Shown here in pieces: positions 18,557-37,583 of a DNA stretch of 44,539 nucleotides; within the stretch, counting starts at the first letter, position 1, and every line of letters starts with the position of its first letter. The stretch is from Singulisphaera sp. GP187 (GTDB lineage Bacteria; Planctomycetota; Phycisphaerae; Phycisphaerales; SM1A02), in contig CAMAXY010000017.1 of NCBI GenBank assembly GCA_945862215.1, positions 1 to 44,539 of the forward strand, given 5' to 3'. Position numbers and translations under genes: made by a program. The notes beneath the pieces are model-generated. The model was not told the origin of the DNA, made no database searches, and saw nothing but the letters and a program-made list of their open reading frames with translations.

Positions 18557-18693
18557 TGCTGCGCCTCGCCTACGCAGACTCCGGCTCGGCTTGCAAACTC
18601 GCCGGGGTTCAAATCATTCCGCTGCCCACGGTAGCGAATCAAATTCTCGCTCGAACGTTGTCCAGATCCGTCGCGCATCAGCTTGCGTCCCCA

Positions 18694-18816
18694 GCCGTTG
18701 GAAAGTTCTCTCGGGCGAGTTCCGCAGGCGGCCGACTGAACTTGCAAACAAATTTGTTCAACCGGATTGTGTCGGTCGCCGAGGACTGTCTGAGCCCCGA
18801 GAGGACTTTTCACGGC
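18694..18816 (-). repeat. 123-bp palindromic element, copy 5
   Basis: Full-length copy on the minus strand. The minus-strand 5' arm begins GCCGTGAAAAGTCCTCTCGG and the 3' arm is its imperfect inverse ending in CAACGGC. The central loop is more diverged than in the other copies, and one inner-stem arm is altered (CGACTGAACTTGC on the plus strand). Confidence 0.9.
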
Positions 18817-18872
18817 TGCTCACTCATGTATTTCAGTTGCTCGATTCCGTCGCGCATCAGCTTGCGTCCCCA

Positions 18873-18995
18873 GCCGTTGGAAAGTTCTCTCGGGCGAGTT
18901 CCGCAGGCGGCCGACGGCACTTGCAATAAAATTTCAAAAACCAGATCGTGTCGGTCGCCGAGGACTGTCTGAGCCCCGAGAGGACTTTTCACGGC
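18873..18995 (-). repeat. 123-bp palindromic element, copy 6
   Basis: Full-length copy on the minus strand, 56 bases from copy 5. The arms and the inner GGCGACCGAC/GTCGGCCGCC pairing are intact. The loop keeps the conserved AAATTTTATTGCAAG. Its outer edge carries ATGCAT and repeated ATTCCGTGG motifs leading to the queG stop. Confidence 0.9.
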
Positions 18996-19060
18996 TGCCC
19001 ACTGATGCATTTCCGTGGCTCGATTCCGTGGCTGAATCCATTGTTGATTCCGTGGAGAGT

Positions 19061-20209
19061 TCAATCCAACTTTGGTGGCTGACTCAGTCGATTCAAGACT
19101 TTACGCGCGGCTTCTCGAACCATTGCATTTTCATTTTCATCTCCAGCAATCCGCCGCACAATTCCTCCAACTGGATCATCGCTAGATCGCTGCAATACTT
19201 CCAGCGAACACCACACCGCATTGCGCCGAACATGCTGCGCAAGAACTCGGTTGAGCGCACTCGGTCCAAATGCTGCGCGCCGAGTCTGCTCGTCCCACCC
19301 AAGAACCGCACGCAAAGAAAACGCTGCATTTCGGCCGTCATACTCTGGATGAGTTCCCATTCGAAGCGACAATCTCGTCGGCTGATTATGCGGACAAACT
19401 TCTTGGCAAATATCACAGCCCAATAGCCAGTCCCCTACTTTTGCTGCGGATTCTGGATCAGGCCGCACGCGCTCTTCAAGCGTGATTCCACTGATGCACT
19501 TTGTTGCGTCAACCGACCATGGGGTGATTGCATTTGTTGGGCACGCATCAATACATCGCGTGCATGATCCACATGGATCACCTCGATGCGGCAAGTTTGG
19601 TGCGGTTACATTCAGCTTCGCAGTCGTAACATATGAAGCGAGCAAGACCCACGACCCAAGTTCTGGCAAGATGAGCAGCGTGTGCTTGCCGCATTGGCCA
19701 AGTCCCGCTCGCTCCGCCATTTCACGCTCCATGAAAGGTTCGATATCGCAGCAGACTTTTCCACGAGTTCCTGGAAGCGCCTCTTCCATTTCTCGCTGCA
19801 ATCTGCGCAATCTTTTCTTGATCCGTCTGTGATAATCGCGCCCACGTGCATAACGCGCCGTTCGTCCAGCAGATTCGAATTCGCCCGTTGAAGGATCGAC
19901 GACTTGTGCAGGACGTTGATCTGGTCGACCATCGTGATATCGATCAGCAACAACCACAATGCTCTGCGCGCCAGGAACAAGCTTGCGCGGATCAAGCCTG
20001 ACCGTAATATTTTTACTCATCCAGTCCATGGATCCATGATGCCCCGCTGCCAGCCATGCATGCAACTCTTCGCCGCGACTACTTGCTGCAGCATCACAAA
20101 TTCCCACTGCAGCAAATCCAAGCGAGCGACTTCGAGCGAGTGCCCATGCAGTCAAAGCCGAAGCATCAGATGGATCGATTGGACATGCGAACTCATTGTT
20201 TCCCGACAT
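19061..20209 (-). CDS. queG: epoxyqueuosine reductase
   Basis: QueG reduces epoxyqueuosine to queuosine in the wobble base of certain tRNAs, using cobalamin and two 4Fe-4S clusters. The ATG at 20209 is chosen, giving 382 residues, because the longer frame runs backwards through the end of hpnE. Diagnostic segments are ARYARGRDYH (about 118-127), CDIEPFMEREMAERAGLG with Asp155 as the likely proton donor, CGSCTRCIDACP (Cys213, 216, 219, 223) and GCDICQEVCPHN for the second cluster. A C-terminal helical-repeat tail follows. It starts 2 bases after the hpnE stop and is the last gene of the hpnC-D-E-queG operon. The join to squalene genes is probably one of convenience. Repeat array 1 begins about 50 bases after its stop. 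Confidence 0.94.
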   Translation of the reverse strand: MSGNNEFACPIDPSDASALTAWALARSRSLGFAAVGICDAAASSRGEELHAWLAAGHHGSMDWMSKNITVRLDPRKLVPGAQSIVVVADRYHDGRPDQRPAQVVDPSTGEFESAGRTARYARGRDYHRRIKKRLRRLQREMEEALPGTRGKVCCDIEPFMEREMAERAGLGQCGKHTLLILPELGSWVLLASYVTTAKLNVTAPNLPHRGDPCGSCTRCIDACPTNAITPWSVDATKCISGITLEERVRPDPESAAKVGDWLLGCDICQEVCPHNQPTRLSLRMGTHPEYDGRNAAFSLRAVLGWDEQTRRAAFGPSALNRVLAQHVRRNAVWCSLEVLQRSSDDPVGGIVRRIAGDENENAMVREAARKVLNRLSQPPKLD

Positions 20210-20211
20210 GG

Positions 20212-21618
20212 TCAAAGGCCCAACATTCGAGCGAGCCCCGCAGGCGGAACATCTGGGATCAATCCACGAATCTTCGCCGTTCCGTTGAACGCAGAGCATC
20301 CATCGGCGGCCAGATATCCGCTGCGAACAGCGCCCTCCATCGTTGCCGGCCAACCTGTATCGCACCAATCACCAGCGAGCAATAAATTGTCAATTCCTCC
20401 GCGGATTCCATCGCGAACAGCGCTTGGTCGCAGGTCATCAATCCCTGGCGTACATGCAAATGTTGCACGTTTTTCTTTGACCGCGCGAAATCCAACAGGA
20501 TCGAGCCCACGCGTTTTTGGCAGCGCCCACTGCACATCCTCCATCACCTTGACGACGATATCGGCCTCATCTAGTTCCATCCATTCATTGGCTGCACTGA
20601 TGACGGCATGAATGTGATATCGACCCTGCGAGTCCACGCCTTTATCGAAGAGCCACTGCGTCGCTCGGCCAGGCAAGACGAGGTGAGGTGTTTGCAGTAT
20701 TGGTTGATCGAAAAAAAGATGCACGCCAAGAATTGGACTGAATTGAATCTCTTCCAGACGTGCGAGTCGAATATCTGCTGTGCGCATTGTGTCCGAGCAA
20801 AGTTTTGCTAATCGATCAGGTGGAACAGCTGCGATCACTGAAGATGATTCGACCATTCCTTCATCGGTGACAACGCCTGTGACACGCCGACCGTCGAATG
20901 CAAGTGCGAGTGCACTCACTCCCATTCGAAGTTCACCGCCGCCTGTTCGCAGAATTTCTTCGGCAGGGTCATAGAGCGATAAAAGAGGAACTGACGAGAG
21001 CCCCATCACAGGACTCCACGAATCCTGCAGAAAACCCTGTTGAAACACATACATCGCATAGAACGCGTCGGTCCGATCGCATGGAACATTGCAGGCGCTG
21101 GTGATGACTGGTTCCCAAAAGAGTTCCCGCGCGGCACGCGTCTGCTTGGTATCTGTCAAGAATTCTCCGAAAGATTTTCCGCGCCATCGCTCTCGACCTT
21201 CGCGTCCGAGGCGAATCAATCTCCACATCGCTCGCGCAATCGATCGCTTGTCTGGCACACTAAGAAATTTCATTCGCAAGAAACTGATTGAAAAATGTCC
21301 TGGTGCTGGAAGACGCCCTGGCATCATGACATCTGGTTCGTATGGCGGATTTGCCCACCACACACGAGGATGCCACTGCACGCTCCCAAGAACTCCGAGT
21401 CGGTCATAGAGATCGAGCAAGTTTGTGCAACTTCCCATCAATACATGCTGACAGTTGTCCAGCATTTCTCCACTGCGAGGATCGACAAAACTCGTCGCTC
21501 GTCCGCCAAGTTTTTTTCTAGATTCCAAAAGCACCACCCGTTCGCCCGCATCCACAAGTCGAATAGCTGCGGCGATACCAGCGAGTCCGCCTCCGACGAT
21601 TGCAATTGGCGGCTTCAT
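20212..21618 (-). CDS. hpnE: hydroxysqualene dehydroxylase HpnE
   Basis: A 468-residue FAD-dependent amine-oxidase/phytoene-desaturase-like enzyme that reduces hydroxysqualene to squalene. The N-terminal Rossmann motif is AIVGGGLAGIAAAIRL, followed by ESRKKLGGRATSF. HpnE-type segments include DNCQHVLMGSCTNLLDLY, the central FWEPVITSACN and QQGFLQDSWSP, and the C-terminal FAD contact LLAGDWCDTGWPATMEGAVRSGYLAA. The start codon overlaps the hpnD stop as ATGA. Its place directly after hpnC and hpnD makes the assignment secure relative to general phytoene desaturases. Confidence 0.93.
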   Translation of the reverse strand: MKPPIAIVGGGLAGIAAAIRLVDAGERVVLLESRKKLGGRATSFVDPRSGEMLDNCQHVLMGSCTNLLDLYDRLGVLGSVQWHPRVWWANPPYEPDVMMPGRLPAPGHFSISFLRMKFLSVPDKRSIARAMWRLIRLGREGRERWRGKSFGEFLTDTKQTRAARELFWEPVITSACNVPCDRTDAFYAMYVFQQGFLQDSWSPVMGLSSVPLLSLYDPAEEILRTGGGELRMGVSALALAFDGRRVTGVVTDEGMVESSSVIAAVPPDRLAKLCSDTMRTADIRLARLEEIQFSPILGVHLFFDQPILQTPHLVLPGRATQWLFDKGVDSQGRYHIHAVISAANEWMELDEADIVVKVMEDVQWALPKTRGLDPVGFRAVKEKRATFACTPGIDDLRPSAVRDGIRGGIDNLLLAGDWCDTGWPATMEGAVRSGYLAADGCSAFNGTAKIRGLIPDVPPAGLARMLGL

Positions 21619-22535
21619 GACTTACGGCCCATACCACGTGCACGAAGTGCGATCATCACTTTGCGCAGTGTTGGCAATGAGACTCTCTTGCGCGAAATTT
21701 GCGATGGATCACGGGCAATTCGCTCCAGAAGTTCACGGTAAATCTCGGTGAGCGCCCAGAGCGTTGGACGACACATTGGATCGATCATCCCATCAAGTGG
21801 CTGACTGCGCACGAAATGTTCGCGTGCACGATCGATCATCGCACGCATCAACTGTTCGCACTGAGCGGGCTTTGACCATGCACACAAATCTTCGGCGGTG
21901 ATTCCAAATCGATCAAATTCTTCTTGCGGAAGATAGACCCTGCCAAGTCCAACATCCTCAACAACATCGCGCAAGACATTCGTCAACTGAAAGGCGATAC
22001 CTCGATCAACTGCAAGTTCGAGAGCAAGTGGATCTTCGTACCCCCACACACGGACACAAACTGTTCCCACAGTACTTGCGACCTGATAGCAATATGCGCG
22101 CAATTCATTCCAGTCTGCAATTCTCCGAGGCTGCAAGTCAGCAATCTGTCCATCAATCATTGAATGAAAGTCACTTGCATCAAGTGGGTATTCCCTTGCA
22201 ACGGCCGAAAGCGCGCGCCAAATTGGTTTGTCCGAAAGAGAACGCCCCGCAAGTGCATCAACTGTGGCAGATCGGAAAGCATGGATATCACTTGCGCTAG
22301 AGTTCGCCCTGGAAGTGGCGCCAGACTGCGCACCAAGCACTTGACCATCAACGATGTCGTCGGCTTCACGCATCCAAGCATAAATCGCATACATCGCAGA
22401 GCGCCGAGGTTCTGGGGTCAAGCGCAGCCCCCAATAGAAATTTCCTGCACGCGTTCGAGTGATTTCTCGGCAAACTGCAATTGCAGCGCAAGTCTCAGCA
22501 TCAGTTTGTAAAGAACTCTGCGCGATCAAGCTCAT
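21615..22535 (-). CDS. hpnD: presqualene diphosphate synthase HpnD
   Basis: A 306-residue squalene/phytoene synthase family enzyme that joins two farnesyl diphosphates to presqualene diphosphate. The first aspartate motif is ADDIVDG (Asp59, 60, 63), and the second is LTNVLRDVVEDVGLGRVYLP. Together with FQLTN and YCYQVASTVG these are typical of HpnD. The ATG at 22535 overlaps the hpnC stop as ATGA and is preferred over an in-frame ATG 33 bases upstream inside hpnC. Confidence 0.94.
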   Translation of the reverse strand: MSLIAQSSLQTDAETCAAIAVCREITRTRAGNFYWGLRLTPEPRRSAMYAIYAWMREADDIVDGQVLGAQSGATSRANSSASDIHAFRSATVDALAGRSLSDKPIWRALSAVAREYPLDASDFHSMIDGQIADLQPRRIADWNELRAYCYQVASTVGTVCVRVWGYEDPLALELAVDRGIAFQLTNVLRDVVEDVGLGRVYLPQEEFDRFGITAEDLCAWSKPAQCEQLMRAMIDRAREHFVRSQPLDGMIDPMCRPTLWALTEIYRELLERIARDPSQISRKRVSLPTLRKVMIALRARGMGRKS

Positions 22536-23494
22536 TTCACAACTACTCCGATATTGCGAGTCGCCCATCGAGCTCGCAACAACAGGGAGATTTTTGCAAA
22601 TTTAGAAAGTCGAGGACGAGAGAGACACGTTTCATAGTTCCATGTTTCAATCTGGCGAAGCGTTCCTGTGCCACCTGCGATAAAAAGCCATATCAATGGA
22701 CGGTGCTCTGGCTGAAGCATGGGCAGCAAAGAAGAACCTGATTCGAAAAGTTCCCACGTTCGAAGAGTCAGTTCGCGCACAGATTCTCGCCAAGATTGCA
22801 AAAACATTTGATCAGGAGCGTATCCCTGCCGACACGTCGAGACAAGCCGTTCCTCGAATTGGTCCACTTTCCAGAAATCACGAGGGATATAAATACGATC
22901 TCGTTCTAGGAGATCGCGACGCGCATCTTGCCAGTGATTGGTCAGTTGAAGCGCAGTGCAAACCGCATCGCTTGCGCGCAAGCATTCTTCGTCGCGCCGT
23001 TCACCGAGCAACATCAGAACGAGCCTTCCCACAGGATCTGCGCTCAATTTGCAATACCCGATGACTTCGTCCCATGTTTCGTATCGCGTCTTTGTCTGAT
23101 CCATCTCGAAGGCGCTGATTAAGTCATCGAACGGTTCTTGCGGAAGTGAATGGCGTGCGATTACAGGCATCAACGCAACAAAGATCGGGTGACTTGCGTG
23201 ACCTGCGAAACATTGATGCAATTGATCACGCCACCATGCCAACAACTCCGTGGAGCGCTTGCGACTTTCAGTTTCATCGCCCAGATCATCGGCTGCTCTA
23301 CAGAACGCATAGACAGCAGAAAAATCATCGACCAAAGATGCGTCAACGAAGCGACTAAGCACGCTGAAGTTCTCGCCGTGGCTCTGCGTCAGTTGCTTGC
23401 ACCACTGCTGGGATTCCGCAAGCGATGCGATTCGCGAACTCGTCGGTCCAAACTCCGCGAGCGCAACCGTTCGATCTGCCTTCGTCGCATTCAT
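22532..23494 (-). CDS. hpnC: hydroxysqualene synthase HpnC
   Basis: A 320-residue squalene/phytoene synthase family enzyme that converts presqualene diphosphate to hydroxysqualene. The first motif is AADDLGDE (Asp69, 70, 73), and the second is LTNHWQDARRDLLERDRIYIP. The H in LTNHWQD and the DLGDE form distinguish HpnC from HpnD. The short N-terminus with WCKQLTQSHGENF is typical. It is the first gene of the operon and is divergent from ispH, with about 50 bases between the starts. No convincing -35/-10 pair was found in that gap. Confidence 0.94.
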   Translation of the reverse strand: MNATKADRTVALAEFGPTSSRIASLAESQQWCKQLTQSHGENFSVLSRFVDASLVDDFSAVYAFCRAADDLGDETESRKRSTELLAWWRDQLHQCFAGHASHPIFVALMPVIARHSLPQEPFDDLISAFEMDQTKTRYETWDEVIGYCKLSADPVGRLVLMLLGERRDEECLRASDAVCTALQLTNHWQDARRDLLERDRIYIPRDFWKVDQFEERLVSTCRQGYAPDQMFLQSWRESVRELTLRTWELFESGSSLLPMLQPEHRPLIWLFIAGGTGTLRQIETWNYETCLSRPRLSKFAKISLLLRARWATRNIGVVVK

Positions 23495-23544
23495 GTGTAT
23501 TCATAGGCTACACCGACAAAAGAGGGACGAATGGCTATGATGCG

Positions 23545-24621
23545 ATGCTCGTGAAGATCCTTCTTGCCAATCCTCGTGGTTTCTGCGCAGGTGTCTATAT
23601 GGCCATCGATGTGGTCGACCAACTGCTCGATCTCTGCCCCGATGAGGTCATCTATGTCTTCCATGAAATCGTGCATAATCGACATGTTGTCGAACGATTC
23701 CAAAGACGAGGTGTCAAATTCGTGGAATCAATCGCCGAAGTTCCAGATGGTGCGATTGTTGTCTTCAGTGCGCACGGAGTCAGCCCGGCTATTCGCTTGG
23801 AAGCGAAGGCCAAGAAGCTTGCGGCAATTGATGCAACGTGTCCACTCGTCACCAAGGTGCACGCAGAAGCAATTCGATACGCCCGTAAAGGATTTCAGAT
23901 TCTTCTCGTTGGACATCGACATCATCAGGAAGTTGTCGGAACTCTCGGCGAAGCTCCTGAAGTTATGCAGGTCGTGGAAAAACCTTCTGACATTGCCAGT
24001 TTGACCATCTCCGATCCAGACAAGTTGGTCTATCTCACTCAAACAACTCTATCTCTCGATGATGCGAACACAATCATTGCTGCACTCAAGATTGCATTCC
24101 CCAATATCAAAGATCCGCCAGTCAGCGATATCTGTTATGCCACAACAAATCGCCAGATGGCTGTGCGTGCTATTGCTCCCAAGTGCGATTTGGTCCTCGT
24201 AGTCGGGAGCGCAAATTCTTCTAATTCAGTCCGCCTAACAGAAATCTCTATGAATCTCGGCACTCCAGCACGCTTGATCGATGATCGAAGCGAAATGAAA
24301 GCTGAATGGTTTGTCGGTGTCGAAACGCTTCTTGTCACTGCAGGCGCGAGCGCTCCAGAAGATCTGGTGCACGATTTGATCGAAGATCTCGTGCGAACTC
24401 ACGGAGCCGAAGTCGAGCAACACGATGTCTGCCACGAAGAAGTCGAATTTGGTTTGCCAGGAACACTGAAGACCATGATGCGTGCACGTGGAGTTGATCC
24501 CGCTGGTCGTCGAATCGTGCGCGGTGATGAAAGTTCTCGTTTGCACGCGTGGTTTGCCGAGCACAACATTCCTTTCCGTACAGTCGACCTGACCGTGCAG
24601 GGATCAGCGATTCAAAATTGA
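23545..24621 (+). CDS. ispH: 4-hydroxy-3-methylbut-2-enyl diphosphate reductase IspH
   Basis: The last enzyme of the MEP pathway, making IPP and DMAPP with a 4Fe-4S cluster. Cluster ligands are Cys in NPRGFCAGV, in DATCPLVTKVH and in DICYATTNRQ. Substrate-site motifs HEIVHN, GHRHHQEVVGT and ANSSNSVRL are present. From the ATG at 23545 the protein is 358 residues. A GTG two codons later (23551) would place the first ligand at Cys12 exactly as in E. coli, so the start is uncertain. It sits back-to-back with the squalene operon, supplying its C5 precursors. The stop overlaps a possible TTG start for the next frame. Confidence 0.95.
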   Translation: MLVKILLANPRGFCAGVYMAIDVVDQLLDLCPDEVIYVFHEIVHNRHVVERFQRRGVKFVESIAEVPDGAIVVFSAHGVSPAIRLEAKAKKLAAIDATCPLVTKVHAEAIRYARKGFQILLVGHRHHQEVVGTLGEAPEVMQVVEKPSDIASLTISDPDKLVYLTQTTLSLDDANTIIAALKIAFPNIKDPPVSDICYATTNRQMAVRAIAPKCDLVLVVGSANSSNSVRLTEISMNLGTPARLIDDRSEMKAEWFVGVETLLVTAGASAPEDLVHDLIEDLVRTHGAEVEQHDVCHEEVEFGLPGTLKTMMRARGVDPAGRRIVRGDESSRLHAWFAEHNIPFRTVDLTVQGSAIQN

Positions 24622-24734
24622 CCGCCCCTGACGAATCCATCCTGCCGACGAATCAGCCGACTGATCAGCCGACTGATCCGCCAACCGAACCATCTGCAGA
24701 TCAATCAAATTCTCGCAGTCATGCGACGTCCAAC

Positions 24735-25838
24735 ATGGTGCATTTCTTCGACTTCAATCAGGAGAGGCTTGCAGCATGGGTGATCGAACACGGAATGCCG
24801 CGTCATACAACCGATCAGATTCTTGATTGGGTTTATCGCAAGGGAGTCTCCGATCCAGCTCAGATGACCAACCTTTCGCGAGGTCAGCGGGCATACTTGG
24901 CAGAGCACATTGCATTCACTCGGGGTCGCACAGTTGCGCATCAATCCGCAAGCGATGGCACGCAAAAACTGCTCGTGTCATGGGCCGATGGTGCTCACCC
25001 AACCAAGACAACTGGGTCACTTCCGATTGTCGGCCAATCAAATGTTGCGCGCGGTCAAGAAACAGAATGTGTCTTGATTCCTGCGGAATCTCGGCGAACT
25101 GCATGCATTTCCAGCCAACTCGGCTGTCCAGTGGGATGCAAATTCTGCGCATCCGGCATTGGCGGGCTGGAAGGAAATTTGACCGCTGGACAAATTATCG
25201 AACAGGTTTTTCAACTTGGACAATTGAAAGGCGTTGATCGAATCTCGCATGTGGTCTTCATGGGAATGGGCGAACCACTCGCAAATTATGCGGCGGTCAC
25301 CGATGCGATTCGAACGCTCAATGCACCATGGGGATTTGGAATTAGTGCAAGACGCATCACACTCTCAACTGTTGGATTGCCCGTCGCTATTCGCAAGTTC
25401 TGCGACTTCGAGATTCCTGTGACCCTTGCACTGAGTCTTCATGCCCCAAACGATGCGCTTCGCCGCGAAATTATTCCGTGGGCAGAATTCAGCACCGTCG
25501 ATGAATTGCTTGATGCTTGCGACGAATGGTTCACGCGAACTGGACGCGAGATCACGCTGGAATACATCTTGCTTGGTGGAGTCAACGATCGACCAGAACA
25601 TGCTGAAGAACTTGCATTTCATGCGCAGCGCATACATGCCAACGTCAATCTGATTCGATACAACGAAGTGCGTGGCATGCCATATCAGCGCCCTTCGACA
25701 GAAGATGTCTTGCGCTTTCAAAATATTCTCCGTCAGCGCGAGGTCAATGTGCACATTCGAGCAAGTCGCGGCCGCGATATCGCAGCAGCTTGCGGACAAT
25801 TGCGACACGAACACGCAAGCAACGTGCGGGCTGTCTGA
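24735..25838 (+). CDS. rlmN: 23S rRNA (A2503-C2) / tRNA (A37-C2) methyltransferase RlmN
   Basis: A radical-SAM enzyme methylating C2 of A2503 in 23S rRNA and A37 in some tRNAs. The ATG at 24735 gives 367 residues, the usual size. The cluster motif is GCPVGCKFCASG. Other hallmarks are QTECVLIP-like ETECVLIPAESRRTACISSQLGC, MGMGEPLANY, ITLSTVGLP, SLHAPNDALRREIIPW, and the C-terminal Cys in RDIAAACGQL, which forms the methyl-Cys relay. The open frame extends upstream to a TTG at 24618 overlapping the ispH stop (TTGA), through a Pro/Thr/Asp repeat stretch. That longer form is possible but atypical. Confidence 0.94.
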   Translation: MVHFFDFNQERLAAWVIEHGMPRHTTDQILDWVYRKGVSDPAQMTNLSRGQRAYLAEHIAFTRGRTVAHQSASDGTQKLLVSWADGAHPTKTTGSLPIVGQSNVARGQETECVLIPAESRRTACISSQLGCPVGCKFCASGIGGLEGNLTAGQIIEQVFQLGQLKGVDRISHVVFMGMGEPLANYAAVTDAIRTLNAPWGFGISARRITLSTVGLPVAIRKFCDFEIPVTLALSLHAPNDALRREIIPWAEFSTVDELLDACDEWFTRTGREITLEYILLGGVNDRPEHAEELAFHAQRIHANVNLIRYNEVRGMPYQRPSTEDVLRFQNILRQREVNVHIRASRGRDIAAACGQLRHEHASNVRAV

Positions 25839-25846
25839 ATCAGCCT

Positions 25847-29326: not shown

Positions 29327-29356
29327 TAGGGAGATCGTAGTGCGAAGAGGCTCGAG

Positions 29357-30232
29357 TCATCGTCTGCGTAAAATTTCCGCGACGACGAATGCCAATGCAT
29401 TTTCGTCGTGATCTGGGGCACGTTGCTTTGCAAGCGCGGCGACAGCGGAATCCGCGTTCGCGACTGCGAAAGATTGCGTCGCGTTGCTGAGCATTCCAAC
29501 ATCATTCAAACCATCGCCAACCGTGACAACTTGCGACTCATCAACTCCGCGCAACTTGCAAAGCCTCTGAATCATTGACCATTTATCAACATCCGCATCG
29601 AAAATTTCGAGCAAATGCGTGTCGATGCCAGCAGTGCCGAGTGCGACTAATGCAGGCCAATGCTTGATTGCAAGTCGTTCTGGAACTTCTTTGCGAATTG
29701 CATCTGCGACGAGAGCCAAGTCACTCGCCATCGCTACTGTCCCAACACGCAGAACATGTTCCAACTGTGCAGAGCGTTCGCTCGCATCGTTATTCAATTG
29801 CGGCACAGAGCGAGTTGTGACTGGATGCACTCCGAACCACCAACGACTTGCTGCATCGAGCTGTGCGTCGCCCACTAATAAATAGTCATATCCCGCTTGA
29901 GTCGAATCTTTCAAGAGATGAGCGAGATGCCCATGCCGAATGAGACTTTCCGTGCAGTGGCTGACGAGATCATGGGAAATGACTATTCGATCTTCGCAGC
30001 GACCGCTTTCGATGTCGTGAAGAGCGGCGCCACCAGCCGAAATCACCATCCCGGTTCCAAGAACGTCTTGAGAAATACTTCGACATTCAAGCCAAGAACG
30101 GCCAGTTGCGAATACGACTTCGATTCCCGAATCTCTCGCCAAAGCAATCGCTTGTCGGTTTGCGAAGGAAACAGAACCACTGCGATCAAGCAGTGTTCCA
30201 TCGAGATCAGTCACAAGAATCTTGCAGCACAT
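29357..30232 (-). CDS. HAD-superfamily phosphatase, Cof/YbiV type (subfamily IIB)
   Basis: A 291-residue hydrolase. The ATG at 30232 starts MCCKILVTDLDGTLLD, with nucleophile Asp9 and acid/base Asp11. Motif II is FATGRS, motif III is the Lys in VDKWSMIQRL, and motif IV is VGDGLNDVGML. A large insert between motifs II and III is the type IIB cap. Such enzymes dephosphorylate sugar phosphates or flavin mononucleotide, and substrates cannot be read from sequence. It is probably co-transcribed with the oxidoreductase-like gene downstream. Its start lies 34 bases from the divergent membrane protein gene. Confidence 0.88.
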   Translation of the reverse strand: MCCKILVTDLDGTLLDRSGSVSFANRQAIALARDSGIEVVFATGRSWLECRSISQDVLGTGMVISAGGAALHDIESGRCEDRIVISHDLVSHCTESLIRHGHLAHLLKDSTQAGYDYLLVGDAQLDAASRWWFGVHPVTTRSVPQLNNDASERSAQLEHVLRVGTVAMASDLALVADAIRKEVPERLAIKHWPALVALGTAGIDTHLLEIFDADVDKWSMIQRLCKLRGVDESQVVTVGDGLNDVGMLSNATQSFAVANADSAVAALAKQRAPDHDENALAFVVAEILRRR

Positions 30233-30266
30233 TGAATTCCTACAGAATGCTACACTTCGACCCCTT

Positions 30267-31151
30267 ATGGACCGCAAACGACTTGGTAACGTTCAACAAA
30301 CCGATTTGACCGAAGGTCGAATCAACGACGACTTTCTTTTCTGGCTCAAGACCAGCGGACCGAATTGGCTTCTCGCCGTATTGGTTGTTGCATGTTTGGT
30401 GATGGGATGGAACTGGTGGCAGAATCGCTCGGCGCAAGCGCGCGATCTCGCATGGGCGGAACTCGACGCTGCAGATCTTCCTTCCTCGCTAAAAGATGTC
30501 GCAGTCAAGCATGCTGATGTAGGTGCTGTTGCATCGTTTGCACTGTTGAATGCTGGAGATCGTTATCTGCAGAGTGTCGTCACAGGGCAACGATTTGATC
30601 GCGAAGCAACAGCGACTGATGCGCAGTTGACACCAGCTATGAGATTGGAATGGCTCAATGAAGCAGACGGTCTGTATACACAAGTCCTCAAGAATGCTCA
30701 GGCAAATCCTAAGGCTGCTTCCAGTCGAGGATTTGAAGTGAGCGCACTCTTCGGTCGCGCTGCAGTCGCTGAATCAAAGGGTGATGTTGCTACTGCGAAG
30801 ACCTCGCTCGAAGCTGCGCAAGCTCTTGCAGGAACTCAATATCCATGGGTTGCGGGTCAAGCAAAGGCTCGCATCGAAACTCTCGGAGTGATTTCATCTC
30901 CATATCCGATTCCTCCTGCACCACCTGTTGCAGTGCTTCCTGATGGATCGCCTATGAAGCTTCCCAGCGGTTCTTCCCTAACAGATGCAGATGCGATGCG
31001 ACTTCTCATGAGTGATGTTTCGAAGAGTGCTGCTCAACCTGGAAATGCGCCTGAACCAACTGCAGTTACGCCAGCAGAACCTGCGCCTGCTGCTGAGCCA
31101 GTTCCAGTACCTGCACCTGCGCCTGCACCTGCGCCTGCGCCTGCGCCATAA
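30267..31151 (+). CDS. membrane-anchored TPR-like protein with Pro-Ala tail
   Basis: A 294-residue protein. The ATG at 30267 is chosen over an upstream ATG that overlaps the divergent gene. Residues 33-51 form one membrane helix, and the rest should be periplasmic. Helical pairs at about 60-205 look like weak TPRs, in the manner of the YfgM/tol-pal-linked family. The tail ends in (PVP/PAP)n, encoded by a CCTGCR hexamer repeat at about 31108-31148. A TG-n-TACACT extended -10-like element at 30248-30256 would start transcription only a few bases before the ATG. The role is unknown. It is followed after 17 bases by the pseudouridine synthase gene. Confidence 0.7.
   Translation: MDRKRLGNVQQTDLTEGRINDDFLFWLKTSGPNWLLAVLVVACLVMGWNWWQNRSAQARDLAWAELDAADLPSSLKDVAVKHADVGAVASFALLNAGDRYLQSVVTGQRFDREATATDAQLTPAMRLEWLNEADGLYTQVLKNAQANPKAASSRGFEVSALFGRAAVAESKGDVATAKTSLEAAQALAGTQYPWVAGQAKARIETLGVISSPYPIPPAPPVAVLPDGSPMKLPSGSSLTDADAMRLLMSDVSKSAAQPGNAPEPTAVTPAEPAPAAEPVPVPAPAPAPAPAPAP
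31108..31148 (+). repeat. hexanucleotide repeat encoding Pro-Ala tail
   Basis: Consecutive CCTGCR hexamers encode alternating Pro and Ala up to the stop codon. This is a slippage-prone tract that could change tail length in frame. Confidence 0.8.
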
Positions 31152-31168
31152 GACTGTGAAGATTTGAA

Positions 31169-32392
31169 TTGCTCTCCAACAGTCCCAGCGACGAAGCGAG
31201 CAATTTTTCTGGTGAAGTTCCCGGCGAAGTTCCAGGCGAAGTTCCCGGCCAAGTTCCCAGCAATATTCCCGCCGATATTGCTGAAAATGATCCGCAGAAT
31301 CTTCTGACCACTGCGGGAACTGTGAATCGCGAAGCTCTCTTCGCACTCTACGAAGAATCTGCGGCAGCGGACGATGATCATCCCGTCCAAGTCACTTTCA
31401 CCCTCAGTCACGATCTTGAAAAGCGCCTGGATCGCTATCTCGTCGACCGCGTTCCATTTCTCAGTCGCACTGCGCTCCAGAAATTGATTGAAGAAGATGC
31501 GGTGCTTGTCAATGGACGCATTGCCAAAGCCAGCACGAAGTTGCGAAGAGGCGATGTGGTAATCGCAACTCTTCCTCCACCGCCAAGCAGCGAAATTCCT
31601 GCGGAAGAAATGCCTCTCGATATTCTTTTCGAGGATGACGAATTGATCGTCATCAACAAACGGCCTGGACTGATCGTTCACCCCGCACGCAGTCACAAAT
31701 CTGGAACATTGATCAACGGACTTGCGTGGCATTTTCAACATCGATCAAGCGGACAACTTTCGACCGTCGGCAAAGACTTTGCGCGACCAGGAGTCGTTCA
31801 CAGACTTGACAAGCACACCAGCGGCGTGATGGTTGCAGCGAAAACAGACACCGCACATTGGCGACTCGGCAAGCAATTCGAACTTCGTCAAACACGCAAG
31901 CGATACATCGCATTGGTGCAGGGTCATCCGGAACCGCATGTCGATCTGATCGATCTTCCACTTGGAAAACATCCGACAATTCGAGAGAAATACGCAGTGC
32001 GGCATGACGACACAGGAAAGGCATCGCAGACTGTGTATCGCGTGCTAGAAGAATATGAAGGTTGCTCGTTAGTCGAACTCGAACTGCTCACTGGTCGCAC
32101 GCACCAGATTCGAGTGCATTTAGCGCATCTTGGATATCCGCTCGTGGGCGATGACATGTACGGCGGGAAACATGTGACTGAACGAGATTTCGGCGGCAGC
32201 AGCGACGCGCCACTTCTCACACGACAGGCGCTCCATGCGGCACTGCTCGGTTTTAAGCATCCCATCTCCAACGAGCCCATGACATTTCAAGCGCCGCTCT
32301 GGAGCGACTTGCAACGAGCAATTCAATTGCTCCGCACGCACCGATTTCAAAAACGCATTGATGCTGTTGGCACGCTTGTCAGCGTTCCCTGA
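31169..32392 (+). CDS. rluD: 23S rRNA pseudouridine synthase, RluD type
   Basis: An RluA-family enzyme. It has an S4 RNA-binding domain (RLDRYLVDRVPFLSRTALQKLI, about 92-113), then the catalytic domain with GVVHRLDKHTSGVMV containing the nucleophilic Asp. NKRPGLIVHPA, LLTGRTHQIRVHLAHLGYPLVGD and RQALHA are the other family motifs. A TTG start at 31169 gives 407 residues, against about 326 for RluD. The extra N-terminus contains four GEVP-like tetrapeptides encoded by 12-bp repeats. An in-frame GTG at 31321 would give a 356-residue protein without them. Third-position variation between repeats hints that they are translated. RluD makes pseudouridines 1911, 1915 and 1917 in helix 69; RluC-type targets are possible. 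Confidence 0.88.
   Translation: MLSNSPSDEASNFSGEVPGEVPGEVPGQVPSNIPADIAENDPQNLLTTAGTVNREALFALYEESAAADDDHPVQVTFTLSHDLEKRLDRYLVDRVPFLSRTALQKLIEEDAVLVNGRIAKASTKLRRGDVVIATLPPPPSSEIPAEEMPLDILFEDDELIVINKRPGLIVHPARSHKSGTLINGLAWHFQHRSSGQLSTVGKDFARPGVVHRLDKHTSGVMVAAKTDTAHWRLGKQFELRQTRKRYIALVQGHPEPHVDLIDLPLGKHPTIREKYAVRHDDTGKASQTVYRVLEEYEGCSLVELELLTGRTHQIRVHLAHLGYPLVGDDMYGGKHVTERDFGGSSDAPLLTRQALHAALLGFKHPISNEPMTFQAPLWSDLQRAIQLLRTHRFQKRIDAVGTLVSVP
31215..31262 (+). repeat. 12-bp tandem repeat encoding GEVP units
   Basis: About four imperfect 12-bp units (GGCGAAGTTCCM) encode GEVPGEVPGEVPGQVP and fade into SNIPADI. The differences fall mostly at third codon positions. The tract lies in the N-terminal extension of the pseudouridine synthase frame. 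Confidence 0.8.
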
Positions 32393-32438
32393 AACTGTGA
32401 GTGAACGCGCATAAAAATCTTGCCACGCTTTACAAGAA

Positions 32439-33431
32439 TCAGATTCGCTCTTCGCCAGAATTGCGACGCATCAATTCTTGCAGCGCACTTCGGGGAGAAA
32501 GGCCAGAGAACAAGACTCCGTGAACTGCATTTGCAATCGGCATCTCAACTCCATGCTGCTGGGCAAGCTGCACCACGACTCTGCAAGTCTCAACCCCTTC
32601 CACAACAGATTCCATCGAGTTCACAGCAGAATCGCATGATTCTCCACGACCGATTCTTTCGCCAAGCGTGCGATTTCGTCCATCCATACTGAAGCAAGTT
32701 GTTGCAAGATCTCCCACTCCCGCCACGCCGAAAAATGTTTCTCTGCGACCTCCAAGAGCAATTCCCAAACGAGAAATCTCCGCAAGCCCTCGCGCGAGCA
32801 ACGTCGCCTTGGCATTCATTCCAAGTTCCATTCCATCAACCATTCCCGCAGCAAGAGCGATAACATTTTTTATCGCCCCCGCAGCTTCGACTCCCACCTG
32901 ATCCGTCGTGCAATAGATACGCCACGAATCCGTCGCAAGCGCTTTTTGCACATGCATCGTCGCAGATTCAGAACCTGCCGCGACAAGGGCTGTCGGCAGT
33001 CCACGAGCCGCTTCAGTTGCAATCGTCGGGCCAGAAAGGGTGACGATTTCTCCGCCAATGTTCAGAGACGCAAGCACCTCACTCGGTCTCATTTTGGATT
33101 CGACTTCAAACCCTTTCGCAACAGTCACGACACATGCACTCTTTGGACAATCCTTGCCAAGAACTTTCCAAATGGAACGGGCGTATTGAGCCGGTATGGC
33201 TGTGATGACCAAATCCGCTCCCGACATCGCATGTCGCCCATCGATGGTGATGGCGATCGATTCCGCAATTCGCAGCCCTTTGATTCTTGGACTTTCGCGA
33301 TTGGCCAAGAGTGGCGCAATCTCTTGCGCATCGCGTCCCCATAGCGAAACCTTGTGCCCCGCTTTCGCACAGTGGCACGCAAGAACGGTTCCAAATTGCC
33401 CACATCCAATGACTGCAATCTGCTGTGCCAT
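32439..33431 (-). CDS. gpsA: NAD(P)-dependent glycerol-3-phosphate dehydrogenase
   Basis: GpsA makes sn-glycerol-3-phosphate for membrane lipids from dihydroxyacetone phosphate. The 330-residue protein starts with the Rossmann motif AVIGCGQFGTVLACHCAKAGHKVSLWGR. It has VTVAKGFE, LSGPTIATEAARGLPTA, then GAIKNVIALAAGMVDGMELGMNAKA with the catalytic Lys, and FFGVAGVGDLATTC followed by GRNRTLG. The length and all key residues are normal. It is convergent with rluD (46 bases between stops, no clear hairpin). Its start is 69 bases from the divergent P-type ATPase. Confidence 0.95.
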   Translation of the reverse strand: MAQQIAVIGCGQFGTVLACHCAKAGHKVSLWGRDAQEIAPLLANRESPRIKGLRIAESIAITIDGRHAMSGADLVITAIPAQYARSIWKVLGKDCPKSACVVTVAKGFEVESKMRPSEVLASLNIGGEIVTLSGPTIATEAARGLPTALVAAGSESATMHVQKALATDSWRIYCTTDQVGVEAAGAIKNVIALAAGMVDGMELGMNAKATLLARGLAEISRLGIALGGRRETFFGVAGVGDLATTCFSMDGRNRTLGERIGRGESCDSAVNSMESVVEGVETCRVVVQLAQQHGVEMPIANAVHGVLFSGLSPRSALQELMRRNSGEERI

Positions 33432-33455
33432 CCAATCACCCTACCACGACTTCGA

Positions 33456-33484
33456 TTGGCAAGCGTGCTAACCTAAAATACAAT
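33456..33484 (+). promoter_or_regulatory. candidate sigma-70-type promoter for the metal ATPase operon
   Basis: TTGGCA at 33456-33461 and TACAAT at 33479-33484 are separated by 17 bases, each one mismatch from consensus. The predicted transcript would start near 33491, about 10 bases before the ATG. The message would then be almost leaderless, and GGAGA (33486-33490) would not serve as a ribosome-binding site. Confidence 0.45.
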
Positions 33485-33500
33485 TGGAGACCCATCAATT

Positions 33501-35540
33501 ATGACCACGATAAATGCATCAACCTCAACAACTCGAAATGACCGCGATGCGGAGGCAGCACAAGGCGGCATTCGACTTGAACAGAGACTTTTTATTGCAC
33601 TCTGCGGTGGCATGATGCTCTTGGTTGCGTGGTTGGGCTCTGCGCTTTTTGGTATTGAACCTTCCGTCGCTCAAATTCCTGCTGTGATCGGCGCGATCAT
33701 TCTGACTGTACCGATGGCTGTCGGTGCGCTGAAAGAATTGAAAATGGGTCGTGCGTCGAGCGATTCGCTTGCCACGTTGGCAGTGCTTGCAGCGATGGCG
33801 AATCATCTGTATCTCGCCGCAGGATTTCTTGCTTTCTTTCTCTGGCTCTCAGAACTGATTCTCTCGCGAACTGCTTGGGGTGCGCAACGCGCAATTCGTG
33901 ATCTTCTGGAATTGACTCCAGATATGGCGCGTATCGTCGATGCTTCTGGAAGTGAGCGTGAAGTCAGTCGCAATATTGTGAAAGTTGGAGATGTACTTCG
34001 TGTTCGACCTGGAGAAAATCTTCCTGCCGACGGTCGTGTTGTGCGCGGCACAAGCAGCATTAATCAGGCTTCGTTGACCGGTGAAGCTGTGCCAGTTGAA
34101 GCGCAGCCTGGACTTGATGTGTATGCGGGAACCACGAATTTGACGGGACAATTGGACATAACTGTGACTGCTGTCGCAGGAGAGACCACCATCGGTAAAG
34201 TCGAAACGCTGATTCGAGAAGCCGAAAATTCTCGCAGTGATCGCCAAGAACTCATCGAACGATTGGCTGCGTATTACGTGCCAGTCGTGTTGATGGTCGC
34301 TGGATTAGTTTGGTTCTTCACCAGCAAGAGCGTGGTTGCAGAAATTCGCGATCAAGCAGCCGTGCGTGCGATCACCGTCTTGGTCGTGACTTGCCCAGGT
34401 GCGCTTTTGATTGCATACCCAACTGCAATGGTTGCAGCATTCGCTGCAGCGGCTCGATTGGGAATCATGATTAAGCAAACGCGAACATTGGAAGCCGCTG
34501 GACGAATCGACACCGTCGTCTTGGATAAGACTGGAACTCTCACCACTGGAAAATTCAGCGTCAGCAGACTTGCTCCTGCAGAAGGATGTGAAGGCGCCGC
34601 GCTTCTGCAAGCTGCCGCGGACTGCGAACAATCGTCCAACCATCCACTTGCACGCAGCATTCTTGAAACTGCAACGCGCGCACGAATCCAACCCACCGCT
34701 CTTACCGCATATGAAGAAATTCACGGGCGCGGAGTGCTTGCAAAAACTGCAACCGGATCCACAATTCACGCCGGAAGATCTCAGTGGCTTCGAGAACTCA
34801 ATCCAAGCGTCGCAGAACAAGTCGCCAAGGTTGAAGAGCGCATCGAAGGCATGTCGAGCGTGCATGTCATGGTCGACAACAAATATTTAGGCGCAGTCGG
34901 ACTTGAAGACAAATTGCGCCAAAATGCAGCGGAAACTGTCACTCGCCTGCGACAATTGGGAGTTCGGCGCATCTGCATCTTCACAGGTGATCGATTGGCT
35001 GTCGCCCGTCAAGTGGGCGAAGCTGTAGGTGTCGACACCATCGAAGCTGAATGCCTTCCAGAAGAGAAGCACGAAGAATTGAAGTATCTGCTGCAACGCG
35101 GCCATAAGGTTCTTGTTGTCGGCGACGGAATCAACGACGGACCAATTCTCGCAAGCGCAGATGTTGGCGTTGCCATGGGACTTTCAGGTTCGGATATTGC
35201 GACCAACAGCGCAGGCGTTGCTTTGATGAATGAAGATCTTCGACACATTCCATTTTTGCTCGAACTTGCAGCGAAGACGCGCGGAATCATTGCGGTCAAT
35301 ATCGGAGCGAGTTTGTTGTTGGCAACAATCGGTCTTGCATTGGCAGCAACTGGCCAGATCGATATTTGGGTCACACCTTTCTATCAAGCAGCTGCGTATA
35401 TTTTCGTTATCGCCAACAGTCTCAGACTTGTGAGATTCGGCGAGGAATTTGCCGACGCAGAAGAAGTACGGCGGTTGATGGAATCGAATCGCGCACAAAA
35501 GCCTGTCCGCGCTGCGCAGCGGCTTGCAGCAACAGCATGA
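33501..35540 (+). CDS. P1B-type heavy-metal-transporting ATPase with CPG motif
   Basis: A 679-residue metal-pumping ATPase of the inner membrane. Helices occupy about 27-130, then the actuator domain with SLTGEAVPV, the helix carrying TCPGALLIAYP (Cys298-Pro-Gly), the phosphorylation motif DKTGT (Asp342), the nucleotide-binding SNHP signature, GDGINDGPILASADVGVAMG, and two C-terminal helices. There is no N-terminal HMA domain. The membrane motif is CPG where Cu and Zn pumps have CPC, and the hinge reads NDGP instead of NDAP, so the metal cannot be assigned from known rules. The stop overlaps the start of the next gene (ATGA), an exported heme/copper-type protein. That suggests metal supply to it or a shared response. 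Confidence 0.9.
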   Translation: MTTINASTSTTRNDRDAEAAQGGIRLEQRLFIALCGGMMLLVAWLGSALFGIEPSVAQIPAVIGAIILTVPMAVGALKELKMGRASSDSLATLAVLAAMANHLYLAAGFLAFFLWLSELILSRTAWGAQRAIRDLLELTPDMARIVDASGSEREVSRNIVKVGDVLRVRPGENLPADGRVVRGTSSINQASLTGEAVPVEAQPGLDVYAGTTNLTGQLDITVTAVAGETTIGKVETLIREAENSRSDRQELIERLAAYYVPVVLMVAGLVWFFTSKSVVAEIRDQAAVRAITVLVVTCPGALLIAYPTAMVAAFAAAARLGIMIKQTRTLEAAGRIDTVVLDKTGTLTTGKFSVSRLAPAEGCEGAALLQAAADCEQSSNHPLARSILETATRARIQPTALTAYEEIHGRGVLAKTATGSTIHAGRSQWLRELNPSVAEQVAKVEERIEGMSSVHVMVDNKYLGAVGLEDKLRQNAAETVTRLRQLGVRRICIFTGDRLAVARQVGEAVGVDTIEAECLPEEKHEELKYLLQRGHKVLVVGDGINDGPILASADVGVAMGLSGSDIATNSAGVALMNEDLRHIPFLLELAAKTRGIIAVNIGASLLLATIGLALAATGQIDIWVTPFYQAAAYIFVIANSLRLVRFGEEFADAEEVRRLMESNRAQKPVRAAQRLAATA

Positions 35541-36739
35541 TTTACTGGGCAGAGCGATTGGGTCGCTCTTGCTTTCTTTTTTGCGTGTCGACTCTGGCTG
35601 TTTGCGCATCTGCTGATCAGCACATTCATGCTGAAAATCTGCAGATTTCGAATGGAGCTCAAGTATTTTCCAAGTCTTGTTTGCCATGTCATGGCGCAAA
35701 CAGTCCAGCAGCACTTGACTTGACTGATCCAATTTCGCTGCGCCGCAGAGCGACAACTGCAGCACAAGTTGTTCGAGATGGATTGATGCCACCATGGCTT
35801 CCAAGCGAATCGGGTGCTCCGTTGAAGCATTCACGCAAACTCTCTGCAACAGATCGCGCATCCCTTTTGGAATGGCTAGATCAGAGTGCACAAGGCAAAG
35901 TTCCCAGCGCAGTTGTCACCCCCCGCCCTTCGCAGGAGAGCGAGATCGCCTTTCGTGTCGCAGATGATTTGCAAGTCGGAGGAGATCCTGGGATGACGCT
36001 CAGATCTTTCGCCATCAAACAGGATCCAACGATGAATCCTGACACACCGAAGTTTTTCAATGCGATCGAATTTGTTGCGGATGCACCTGGAGTTGTTCAC
36101 TCAGTTTCTTTTCTTTGGGATGAACTGGGTTATGCCGCACGGTTGGATGCTTCCGATCCTGCACCGGGTTATGACGCCGTCGGAGATATCGGGTTGGAAG
36201 TTTCTGGTTCGAGCGGTTGCGTTTCGCGCTTGTCAACACTCTGGCAATTGCCGAAGGGTTATGCAATGAAAATTCCAATCGATGCGGTACTGGTCGCAGA
36301 GGTCCATGCTGAAGGACGGGGAAAGATGGAATCTACCGCAGGAAATGTCTGTTTTCTCGCGCCAGAATTTCCCTGCAAACTGGTTCATGCCATCGCAATA
36401 AGTCCTTCGCGTCCGGCCAAAGTCGCATCTGCATGCGAGGCAGTTTCAATTTCAATTCGCGCGGGATCGAGGGTGCAATCGATTGATGTTTTCGCAAAGG
36501 ATGCGAAGGGACAATTGCAATGCGTGCTGAATATTCCAAAGTGGAATGAGAGATTGAGCGAGCCGTGGATGTTTGATCCTCCGCTTGCGCTAGAAGCTGG
36601 AACAGAGTTGATTGTGCAATCGACTGTGAATGCAGATGCCCAGAAGACGCCGCTTGATGCACATGCTGCTGCGATGAGTCAGCCGATGATTGTTGTGCTT
36701 GTCGCTGACAACGATGCGGATCTGATTCGTGAGAAGTGA
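35537..36739 (+). CDS. secreted cytochrome c fused to a copper-monooxygenase-like domain
   Basis: The ATG at 35537 overlaps the ATPase stop and begins a signal peptide (MIYWAERLGRSCFLFCVSTLAVCASA). The longer upstream frame is inside the ATPase gene and is rejected. The N-terminal part carries a c-type heme site, SCLPCHG (Cys48, Cys51, His52), and a probable axial Met in DGLMPPWLPS. The C-terminal 250 residues follow the pattern of copper type II ascorbate-dependent monooxygenase-like domains common in planctomycetes. However, the usual HY..TGK segment reads AEVHAEGRGKM and few other His/Met pairs remain, so copper binding is doubtful. Repeat array 2 begins about 30 bases after the stop. Confidence 0.75.
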   Translation: MIYWAERLGRSCFLFCVSTLAVCASADQHIHAENLQISNGAQVFSKSCLPCHGANSPAALDLTDPISLRRRATTAAQVVRDGLMPPWLPSESGAPLKHSRKLSATDRASLLEWLDQSAQGKVPSAVVTPRPSQESEIAFRVADDLQVGGDPGMTLRSFAIKQDPTMNPDTPKFFNAIEFVADAPGVVHSVSFLWDELGYAARLDASDPAPGYDAVGDIGLEVSGSSGCVSRLSTLWQLPKGYAMKIPIDAVLVAEVHAEGRGKMESTAGNVCFLAPEFPCKLVHAIAISPSRPAKVASACEAVSISIRAGSRVQSIDVFAKDAKGQLQCVLNIPKWNERLSEPWMFDPPLALEAGTELIVQSTVNADAQKTPLDAHAAAMSQPMIVVLVADNDADLIREK

Positions 36740-36776
36740 GATCTGGATTCGAGCGGAAGAAATGCATAAGTGGGCA

Positions 36777-36831
36777 GCCGTGAAAAGTCCTCTCGGGGCT
36801 CAGACAGTCCTCGGCAGAATTTTTCAACGGC
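36777..36831 (+). repeat. 55-bp internally deleted derivative of the palindromic element, copy 1
   Basis: The left arm is intact through CAGTCCTCGG and then joins directly to the right-arm variant GCAGAATTTTTCAACGGC, which also ends copy 4. Exactly 68 bp of the centre are missing, leaving a minimal hairpin. Confidence 0.85.
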
Positions 36832-36900
36832 TGGGCACGCATACAGATTCGAGACTGAATTCGAGCCACGGAATCGAGTCACAGAAATGCATAGTGGGCA

Positions 36901-37023
36901 GCCGTGAAAAGTCCTCTCGGGGCTCAGACAGTCCTCGGCGACCGACAAGATCCGATTTACGAAATTTTATTGCAGGTGCCGTCGGCCGCCTGCGGAACTC
37001 GCCCGAGAGAACTTTCCAACGGC
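36901..37023 (+). repeat. 123-bp palindromic element, copy 2
   Basis: Full-length copy. The left arm begins GCCGTGAAAAGTCCTCTCGG and the right arm is GCCCGAGAGAACTTTCCAACG plus GC, its imperfect inverse. The inner stem is GGCGACCGAC against GTCGGCCGCC. The flank before it (36865-36900) matches the flank of copy 6 in array 1. Confidence 0.92.
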
Positions 37024-37149
37024 TGGGCACGCAAGCGCGACTGATCTGAAAAACGTTCGAGCGAGAATTTGATTCGCTCACGTGGGCAGCAGAATGATTT
37101 GAACCCCGGCGAGTTTGCAAGCCGAGCAAGTCTGCGCAGTTGTCTTGGC

Positions 37150-37167
37150 GCGCGCCGGAGGGCGCGC
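37150..37167. repeat. GC-rich hairpin inserted in a linker module
   Basis: GCGCGCC, loop GGAG, GGCGCGC makes a perfect 7-bp stem, and the second arm can alternatively pair with GCGCGC at 37177-37182. The matching linker in array 1 lacks this stretch of roughly 40 bases. Confidence 0.75.
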
Positions 37168-37262
37168 TGGATTTCAGCGCGCAGCATTTTTGAGCCCGAT
37201 TGCAAATCAGTCCGCTGCCAAAATCAGCACGAACCACTTTTGAGTCCATGCATAAGTGGTCA

Positions 37263-37385
37263 GCCGTGAAAAGTCCTCTCGGGGCTCAAATAGTCCTCGG
37301 CGACCGACACGATCTGATTTATGAAATTTTATTGCAAGTCCCGTCGGCCGCCTGCGGAACTCGCCCGAGAGAACTTTCCAACGGC
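37263..37385 (+). repeat. 123-bp palindromic element, copy 3
   Basis: Full-length copy with both arms and the AAATTTTATTGCAAG loop intact. It is followed by a 65-base flank shared with the flanks of copies 2 and 5. Confidence 0.92.
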
Positions 37386-37456
37386 TGGAGACGCAAGCGA
37401 ATTCGCGACGGATCTGAAGAACGTTCGAGCGAGAATTTGATTCGCAAACGTGGGCA

Positions 37457-37579
37457 GCCGTGAAAAGATCCCGCCGGGCTCAAACAGTCCTCGGCGACCG
37501 ACACGATCTGATTCACGAAATTTTATTGCAAGTCCCGTCGGCCGCCTGCGGAACTCGCCCGGCAGAATTTTTCAACGGC
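37457..37579 (+). repeat. 123-bp palindromic element, copy 4
   Basis: Full length, but with altered arms: the left reads AAAAGATCCCGCCGGGC and the right CCCGGCAGAATTTTTCAACG. Both arms changed together: GCCGGGC still pairs with GCCCGGC, which hints that base pairing is maintained. Confidence 0.9.
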
Positions 37580-37583
37580 TGGG

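Follow-up and report, generated by a model that had tools for sequence, protein, structure and literature searches.

A dispersed family of large extragenic hairpins with a largely conserved core in a planctomycetal genome

Introduction

What keeps a palindrome of 123 bp at nearly fixed length between genes, and does it spread? The question is raised by a 44,539-nt contig of Singulisphaera sp. GP187 (assembly GCA_945862215.1), analysed here over its whole length and referred to as the window, which carries five imperfect palindromes of this kind in two intergenic arrays. A preliminary description attributed them to selection on structure or to spread as a non-autonomous mobile unit. As a whole its observation is real and partly confirmed, and its interpretation is partly supported: we consider it probable that the hairpins form a lineage-amplified, non-autonomous, large extragenic palindromic repeat, comparable to a bacterial interspersed mosaic element (BIME) but larger, with a core that is read by a putative factor.

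The genome, labelled G000, comprises 2.79 Mb in 112 contigs, and its coding fraction, measured in the window, is 91%. These values resemble the 2.6 Mb and 92.9% coding given for the freshwater Phycisphaerae named Nemodlikiaceae (PMC6461901), among which the genome may belong.

Results and Discussion

Dispersal of the hairpin family

The five copies lie at 18694-18816 and 18873-18995 (plus strand) in the first gap, found by BLAST and by the covariance model R2 described below, and at 36901-37023, 37263-37385 and 37457-37579 (minus strand, supported by BLAST and folding) in the second. A coordinate check showed that each measures exactly 123 bp between GCCG and CGGC ends, as had been reported. 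Confinement to two arrays holds within the window only; genome-wide the family is dispersed, with 56 BLAST matches (60 candidates at an initial look), 49 of them full length. The length, at first taken as strictly exact, is nearly fixed, with 36 full copies at 123 bp, 11 at 124 bp and 2 at 122 bp. R2, built from 34 divergent copies and giving non-overlapping matches in G000, found 83 matches in 44 clusters, 58 of them of the size of the 123-bp type.

The other covariance model, R1, built from 68 close copies and limited to at most 150 scored candidates per genome, found the family in 16 of the 19 genomes of the genus, with 103 matches in G002, 98 in G000, 72 in G016, 71 in G012, 41 in G010, 29 in G008, 12 in G015 and 1-10 in nine others, numbers that may count both strands of one palindrome (double matches were observed). 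In a sample of the family R1 was positive in 6 of 81 genomes, belonging to 3 of 45 genera, and in a sample of the phylum R2 was positive under stricter filters in 4 of 294 genomes, G000 being one of the four. The other carriers in the phylum sample were G217 (28 matches in a closer search), G322 (4) and G285 (2), and a metagenome-assembled genome (MAG) labelled Proteobacteria, G395, yielded 11 matches. Among the matches listed, records with the core pattern described below are MAGs, mostly labelled planctomycetes or uncultured bacteria. Viral contigs contained no exact match to this pattern, plasmid and phage records gave no BLAST match to the family, and no paper recognised as describing it was found in a literature search.

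These distributions bear on one rival, a local duplication or assembly artefact without wider meaning. Copies do stand in tandem in both arrays, and some contigs begin or end in copies; against this, dispersed copies occur in many MAGs and in distant families, with paired changes in their arms, and we grant the artefact next to no credence. For a functionless local duplication the preliminary description had predicted neither copies beyond the two loci nor compensatory changes in relatives, and the covariance-model search of the genome and its relatives found both.

Additionally, hairpins on MAG contigs labelled Betaproteobacteria or Verrucomicrobia (L129, L168 and L180) group with those of the genus members G003 and G006, which suggests mislabelled bins.

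Structure and conserved core

In each unit, a hairpin of about 93-157 nt, an outer helix that varies in sequence but pairs strongly is followed by a largely invariant core forming an internal loop, then by an inner helix and finally by a free loop. The units fall into two types: (i) type A, of about 123 bp, and (ii) type C, of about 108 bp, with a variant core. On one strand the core reads GGGCGAGTT and then, past the inner helix, GAGGACTGTCTGAGCCC; it is largely kept, with variants such as GCATGTTTGAGC in the short type. The strand given for a hairpin is the model strand, which has the G-U pairs and a core of the form GCGAGTT...TGTCTGAGC. Its 5' end is mostly CGTGCCCAGCCG, with CGTC in a minority of copies (read off the alignment, uncounted). 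Folding bore out the pairing of the arms and of the inner stem set out in the preliminary description. The loop string that it regarded as conserved, AAATTTTATTGCAAG, is present in three of the five copies and not in all, and folding favours the strand complementary to the one that it had read (-62.0 versus -46.7 kcal/mol, z -5.8 versus -2.4, for copy 36901-37023).

Between lineages the arms are replaced yet still pair, while the core largely stays. In the alignment of 34 divergent copies (A3), both sides have changed in 31 of 38 pairs, 93.8% of cells hold standard pairs and 244 cells are double-changed, compared with 71 in shuffles and 22-54 with the partner slid, although these counts lean towards the model structure because A3 was fitted to it. 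A3 covers 31 of the 43 searched sources; the search gave 56 matches including reverse-strand ones, and sources with reverse-strand matches were left out. Among the 68 close copies the covariation signal is weak (5 pairs). Selection on structure, one of the two explanations first proposed, is thus supported by paired arm changes that are strong between lineages and weak among close copies. Single-sequence folds are independent of the alignment, yet they use the same 34 sequences, eight of which come from pattern-chosen loci (L129, L155, L168, L173, L178 twice, L180 and L191); each of the 34 is more stable than its own shuffles are on average (z -2.4 to -10.4). Retention of the core has to be read with the choice of loci in mind: L119-L210 were picked by the exact core pattern, among the matches listed, so that the core is kept there by construction, and the divergent loci L081-L117 and L236-L250 come from model searches, which likewise reward the core.

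The strand preference of the fold bears on another rival, in which the model strand would be transcribed as a non-coding RNA gene family or as a protein-bound RNA. It is the more stable strand in 31 of the 34 divergent copies, G-U pairs exceed A-C mismatches on it (197 to 19 in A1, 63 to 30 in A3), and the GA steps on both core strands beside the GGGC/GCCC helix could form sheared pairs. However, the three exceptions to the strand preference are all three copies of one MAG (G395), no Rfam family scored above its gathering threshold (the only matches were far below the gathering scores), and 1 to about 100 matches per genome within one genus, together with tandem copies, would be unusual for an RNA gene. 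This explanation appears improbable to us.

In G000 the outer helix of type A occurs with two sequences, TCTCGG/CCGAGA and TGCCGG/CCGGCG on the model strand, the second being that of the copy at 37457-37579. Three of the 49 copies (L018, L028 and L060) combine one arm of each outer stem and have lost pairs because the arms come from different stems. The two types also combine with each other. A and C hairpins form inverted pairs, and the 39 neighbour pairs in G000 comprise 19 in '-+', 4 in '+-' and 16 in the same orientation, with 11 of the 19 '-+' neighbours 55-56 bp apart and spacings of 12-296 bp within clusters. G015 keeps an inverted long and short pair with other stems and a spacer of 4-5 bp. 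Such combinations, often with a fixed 55-bp spacer, would correspond to the mosaic of BIMEs in E. coli.

Position relative to genes

Gene calls were made by a simple script, without curated annotation. None of the 44 clusters in G000 shares more than 30 bp with a called gene. Where genes were called on both sides (34 clusters), 26 junctions are convergent, 6 tandem and 2 divergent, whereas the 65 hit-free junctions of the same loci comprise 7 convergent, 46 tandem and 12 divergent ones (Fisher 7e-11). Of 42 cluster junctions in five other groups (G217, G395, G322, G051/G087 and the congener G015), 25 are convergent, compared with 7 of 68 hit-free junctions, and one of 44 clusters overlaps a gene call; in some of these groups convergent junctions are not predominant (2 of 5 in G395, 1 of 3 in G322, 2 of 5 in G051/G087).

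This location suggests a different kind of element, a functional 3'-end structure that ends or protects the transcripts of convergent genes and whose core and pairing are kept by selection. Both the polarity near stop codons and its recurrence with unrelated arms make this the strongest rival: where the nearest hairpin of G000 lies at most 70 nt from the facing stop codon, the model strand is antisense to that gene in 28 of 30 cases, and in the five other groups the same holds in 29 of 41 cases at up to 120 nt. Inverted pairs with one hairpin per gene end, found in one locus of G395 and one of G322 (L336, L349), also fit. On the other side, the polarity falls to 49 to 18 (49 of 67) in G000 without a distance limit and is weak in G217 (13 antisense to 8 sense at up to 120 nt), the G000 copies lack a U-run after the hairpin, the strand that is antisense to the nearest gene is the one that folds better, and four of the six convergent junctions of the window have no array.

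Orthologous gaps and gene order

Comparison of orthologous gaps provides further evidence on both explanations. The dnaJ-like gene to the right of array 2 was located in 16 of the 19 genomes of the genus. In 11 congeners (G008, G018, G001, G015, G005, G017, G014, G004, G009, G011 and G013) its convergent neighbour is a homologue of one 208-residue protein, ending 2-62 bp away, and an R2 search of these dnaJ loci gave no hairpin match. In G011 and G013 the dnaJ neighbour was missed by the script and recovered by a homology check, and in G016 and G006 the locus is cut by contig ends. In G012 and G002 A and C hairpins separate the gene from the same neighbour, at distances of 563 and 750 bp respectively. 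In G000, where the gap measures 1262 bp, a different gene stands on the left, the old neighbour being found at another G000 array (C15). The number of A copies also differs at orthologous arrays, for example two versus one at C18, C1 and C8. Lineage-specific amplification and a gap that is free of the array in 11 congeners support the non-autonomous spread envisaged in the preliminary description.

The gene pair that in G012 encloses hairpins thus does without one in those 11 congeners, which speaks against a 3'-end element. In its favour, an orthologous gap of G015 (L111, compared with C12_40386 of G000) has its own hairpins with other stems. Altogether we judge a 3'-end function to be rather unlikely, though deserving serious attention.

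Gene order has changed at the arrays themselves. For 18 distinct arrays of G012 and G010 both flanks could be located in the G000 loci examined, and 9 of these arrays join genes from two different G000 arrays; for four further arrays one flank only was found. When both sides of every junction are counted in these two relatives, the partner differs between species at 20 of 40 junction sides at arrays and at 4 of 91 elsewhere. G012 contains the joins C19L-C6L (L203) and C19R-C6R (L157), which are reciprocal to the arrangement of G000, and G010 shares the first of them (L207); chance misassembly is therefore less likely, though still possible. We infer that the partner exchanges reflect real recombination and not assembly joins.

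A mobile repeat accounts for these findings if its units, being non-autonomous DNA, multiply within lineages and come to lie in convergent gaps, where the disturbance that they cause would be least. Once dispersed, they could act as recombination sites that invert chromosome segments. A trans-acting enzyme or factor that reads the core on the folded strand, either single-stranded DNA or RNA, would presumably drive the spread.

Search for a mobilising enzyme and arguments against mobility

In repetitive extragenic palindromic (REP) sequences and BIMEs such an enzyme would be a REP-associated tyrosine transposase (RAYT, IS200/IS605-like), and a RAYT partner had been suggested for the present family. 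Its architecture, alternating orientation and convergent location would suit mobilisation of this kind. Y1_Tnp, the RAYT-type domain, is however missing from G000 and was found in 2 of 16 carriers only, the searched genomes being incomplete MAGs in which single losses are possible; four Y1 loci contained no hairpin (best E 0.33), and the unit is far longer than 20-40 bp. A RAYT partner was rejected for most carriers, and a RAYT-mobilised REP or BIME has very little probability.

The length of 123 bp recalls the repeats of Vibrio, which are integron attC sites. Recombination sites resembling attC would explain variable stems around conserved unpaired positions as well as partner exchange at arrays. 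On the other hand, there are no gene cassettes between copies, which follow one another within clusters at the short spacings given above, and the integron integrase model gives no more than partial matches in G000 (the best scores 77.3 bits, the cut-off being 265), all 14 control genomes likewise matching below the cut-off. The integron was rejected on these integrase scores, and attC-like sites seem extremely improbable.

Reverse transcriptase was also rejected as the mobiliser, given its inconsistent presence and the absence of a hairpin beside it in the loci fetched. The reverse transcriptase open reading frame (ORF) of G000 adjoins a sulfatase-modifying-factor-like ORF (L306 1105-2364 and 2802-3542, contig G000:C16); judged by eye, the two may possibly constitute a diversity-generating retroelement.

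Several points weigh against a mobile repeat. Y1_Tnp, RVT_1 and the integron integrase include no consistent partner, DDE families not having been searched: Y1_Tnp is absent from 14 of the 16 carriers, and reverse transcriptase occurs in 9 of the 16 carriers and in 1 of 3 non-carriers, with no hairpin at E<=0.01 in the 10 reverse-transcriptase loci fetched. The convergent location and the single polarity of the nearest hairpin fit a selected 3'-end function as well. The rearrangements rest on fragmented MAGs, in which repeats of this type break assemblies, and the P values are optimistic because each junction contributed both of its sides, the comparison of sides drew on two relatives only, and copies and species are related. 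Finally, the gaps without an array are too diverged for exact alignment, and a target-site duplication could not be demonstrated.

Relation to known repeats and significance

REPs are common between convergent genes and act in recombination (PMC1525189), and they lie between convergent and co-directional genes (PMC3733652). The hairpin family is likewise dispersed, extragenic, palindromic and preferentially convergent (26 of 34 junctions in G000, with no overlap of genes), and it forms composites of alternating orientation (19 '-+' and 4 '+-' among the 39 pairs). It differs in (i) unit length, about 93-157 nt (122-124 bp in full copies) versus 20-40 bp, (ii) the conserved part, which is a core in mid-stem and not the end tag GTAG or CGTC by which a REP is recognised, and (iii) the lack of a Y1 transposase in most carriers. 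It therefore works like a BIME but is not a REP by length, tag or RAYT.

With miniature inverted-repeat transposable elements (MITEs) the family shares terminal inverted repeats, represented by the paired ends of the hairpin. The enterobacterial repetitive intergenic consensus (ERIC) measures about 127 bp and is similar by description in being dispersed, intergenic and of similar size. Replacement of the arms between lineages while the core stays distinguishes our family from ERIC and MITEs. ERIC is counted among MITEs, as a dispersed intergenic element with copy numbers of 30 to 711 (PMC10969869). Repeated stem-loops in intergenic space were also the subject of a survey of 40 genomes, which described families of them (Cozzuto et al. 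2008; PMC2267715).

Long reads from lake Planctomycetota revealed disproportionately many structural variants, and deletions in non-coding DNA frequently fell at intergenic tandem repeats (PMC9426551). The hairpin arrays similarly vary in copy number between species and may be identical with these repeats, although no hairpin, core or convergent placement is described in the available portion of that study.

More tentatively, and as a possibility that we hold with clear reserve, the hairpins could represent a class of large mobile hairpins that so far has no name, that extends through Planctomycetota and into at least one MAG labelled Proteobacteria, and whose defining feature is the conserved two-strand core and not the arms. 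Such a class would be read by a putative conserved enzyme that is neither RAYT nor integron integrase, and would be placed at convergent gene ends, driving segmental inversions after which genes still stand tail to tail.

The hairpins would add to the extragenic palindromes a family identified by an internal core, its arms being replaceable, and a search across phyla for the reading factor would become feasible through that core. Moreover, the family would be a possible cause of changes in gene order and of structural variation between genes in lake bacteria. It would also allow a test of whether such repeats merely find refuge at convergent gene ends or have a function there.

Other features of the arrays

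According to the script calls, gap 1 (18403-19060, 658 bp) lies between the convergent genes 16441-18402 (plus) and 19061-20215 (minus), and gap 2 (36740-38001, 1262 bp) between 35681-36739 (plus) and 38002-38943 (minus), the latter with DnaJ domains. In gap 1 a C-type hairpin at 18520-18630 (minus strand; R2 37.6 bits, E 1.6e-5) is inverted relative to the A copies and lies 55 bp from the first A model match. Gap 2 begins with an internally deleted A copy at 36769-36839 (minus; R2 29.6 bits, E 0.0017; BLAST match 36777-36815). A C-type hairpin at 37085-37219 (plus) was recognised by the core pattern (core 37109-37194) and by its left arm at 37085-37106, which belongs to an inverted-repeat pair; its 3' limit was read by eye, and it stands outside the R2 list at E<=0.01. 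Another C-type hairpin, inverted, at 37600-37711 (plus; R2 57.3 bits, E 1.6e-10), lies 12 bp from the last A model match.

In the locus pair L037 170-1721 and L068 1-1575, G015 and G000 are 90% identical, compared with 68-77% for two orthologous gene-end pairs of the same genomes; on these identities a transfer between them is possible. Behind the hairpins of G217 (L236, L241, L243-L249) comes an AT-rich tail, about 45 bp long and conserved in the majority of these loci, and then short GCGCC-type repeats.

Repeat analysis of the window revealed two identical 66-bp tandem units at 18424-18555, each starting with ATGCAT, and, at 37689-37896, two 104-bp units that are 99% alike, after which a third begins. 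In the units of both sizes (18424-18555 and 37689-37940) the start coincides with ATGCAT or adjoins it, and sequence of the short-hairpin type is included. Genome-wide, many A copies are preceded by ATGCAT, which is more frequent in the window than expected (26 seen versus about 10 expected), and many A copies (e.g. L026, L065 and L068) also have degenerate repeats upstream that are about 12 bp long, for example GCCACGGATACA.

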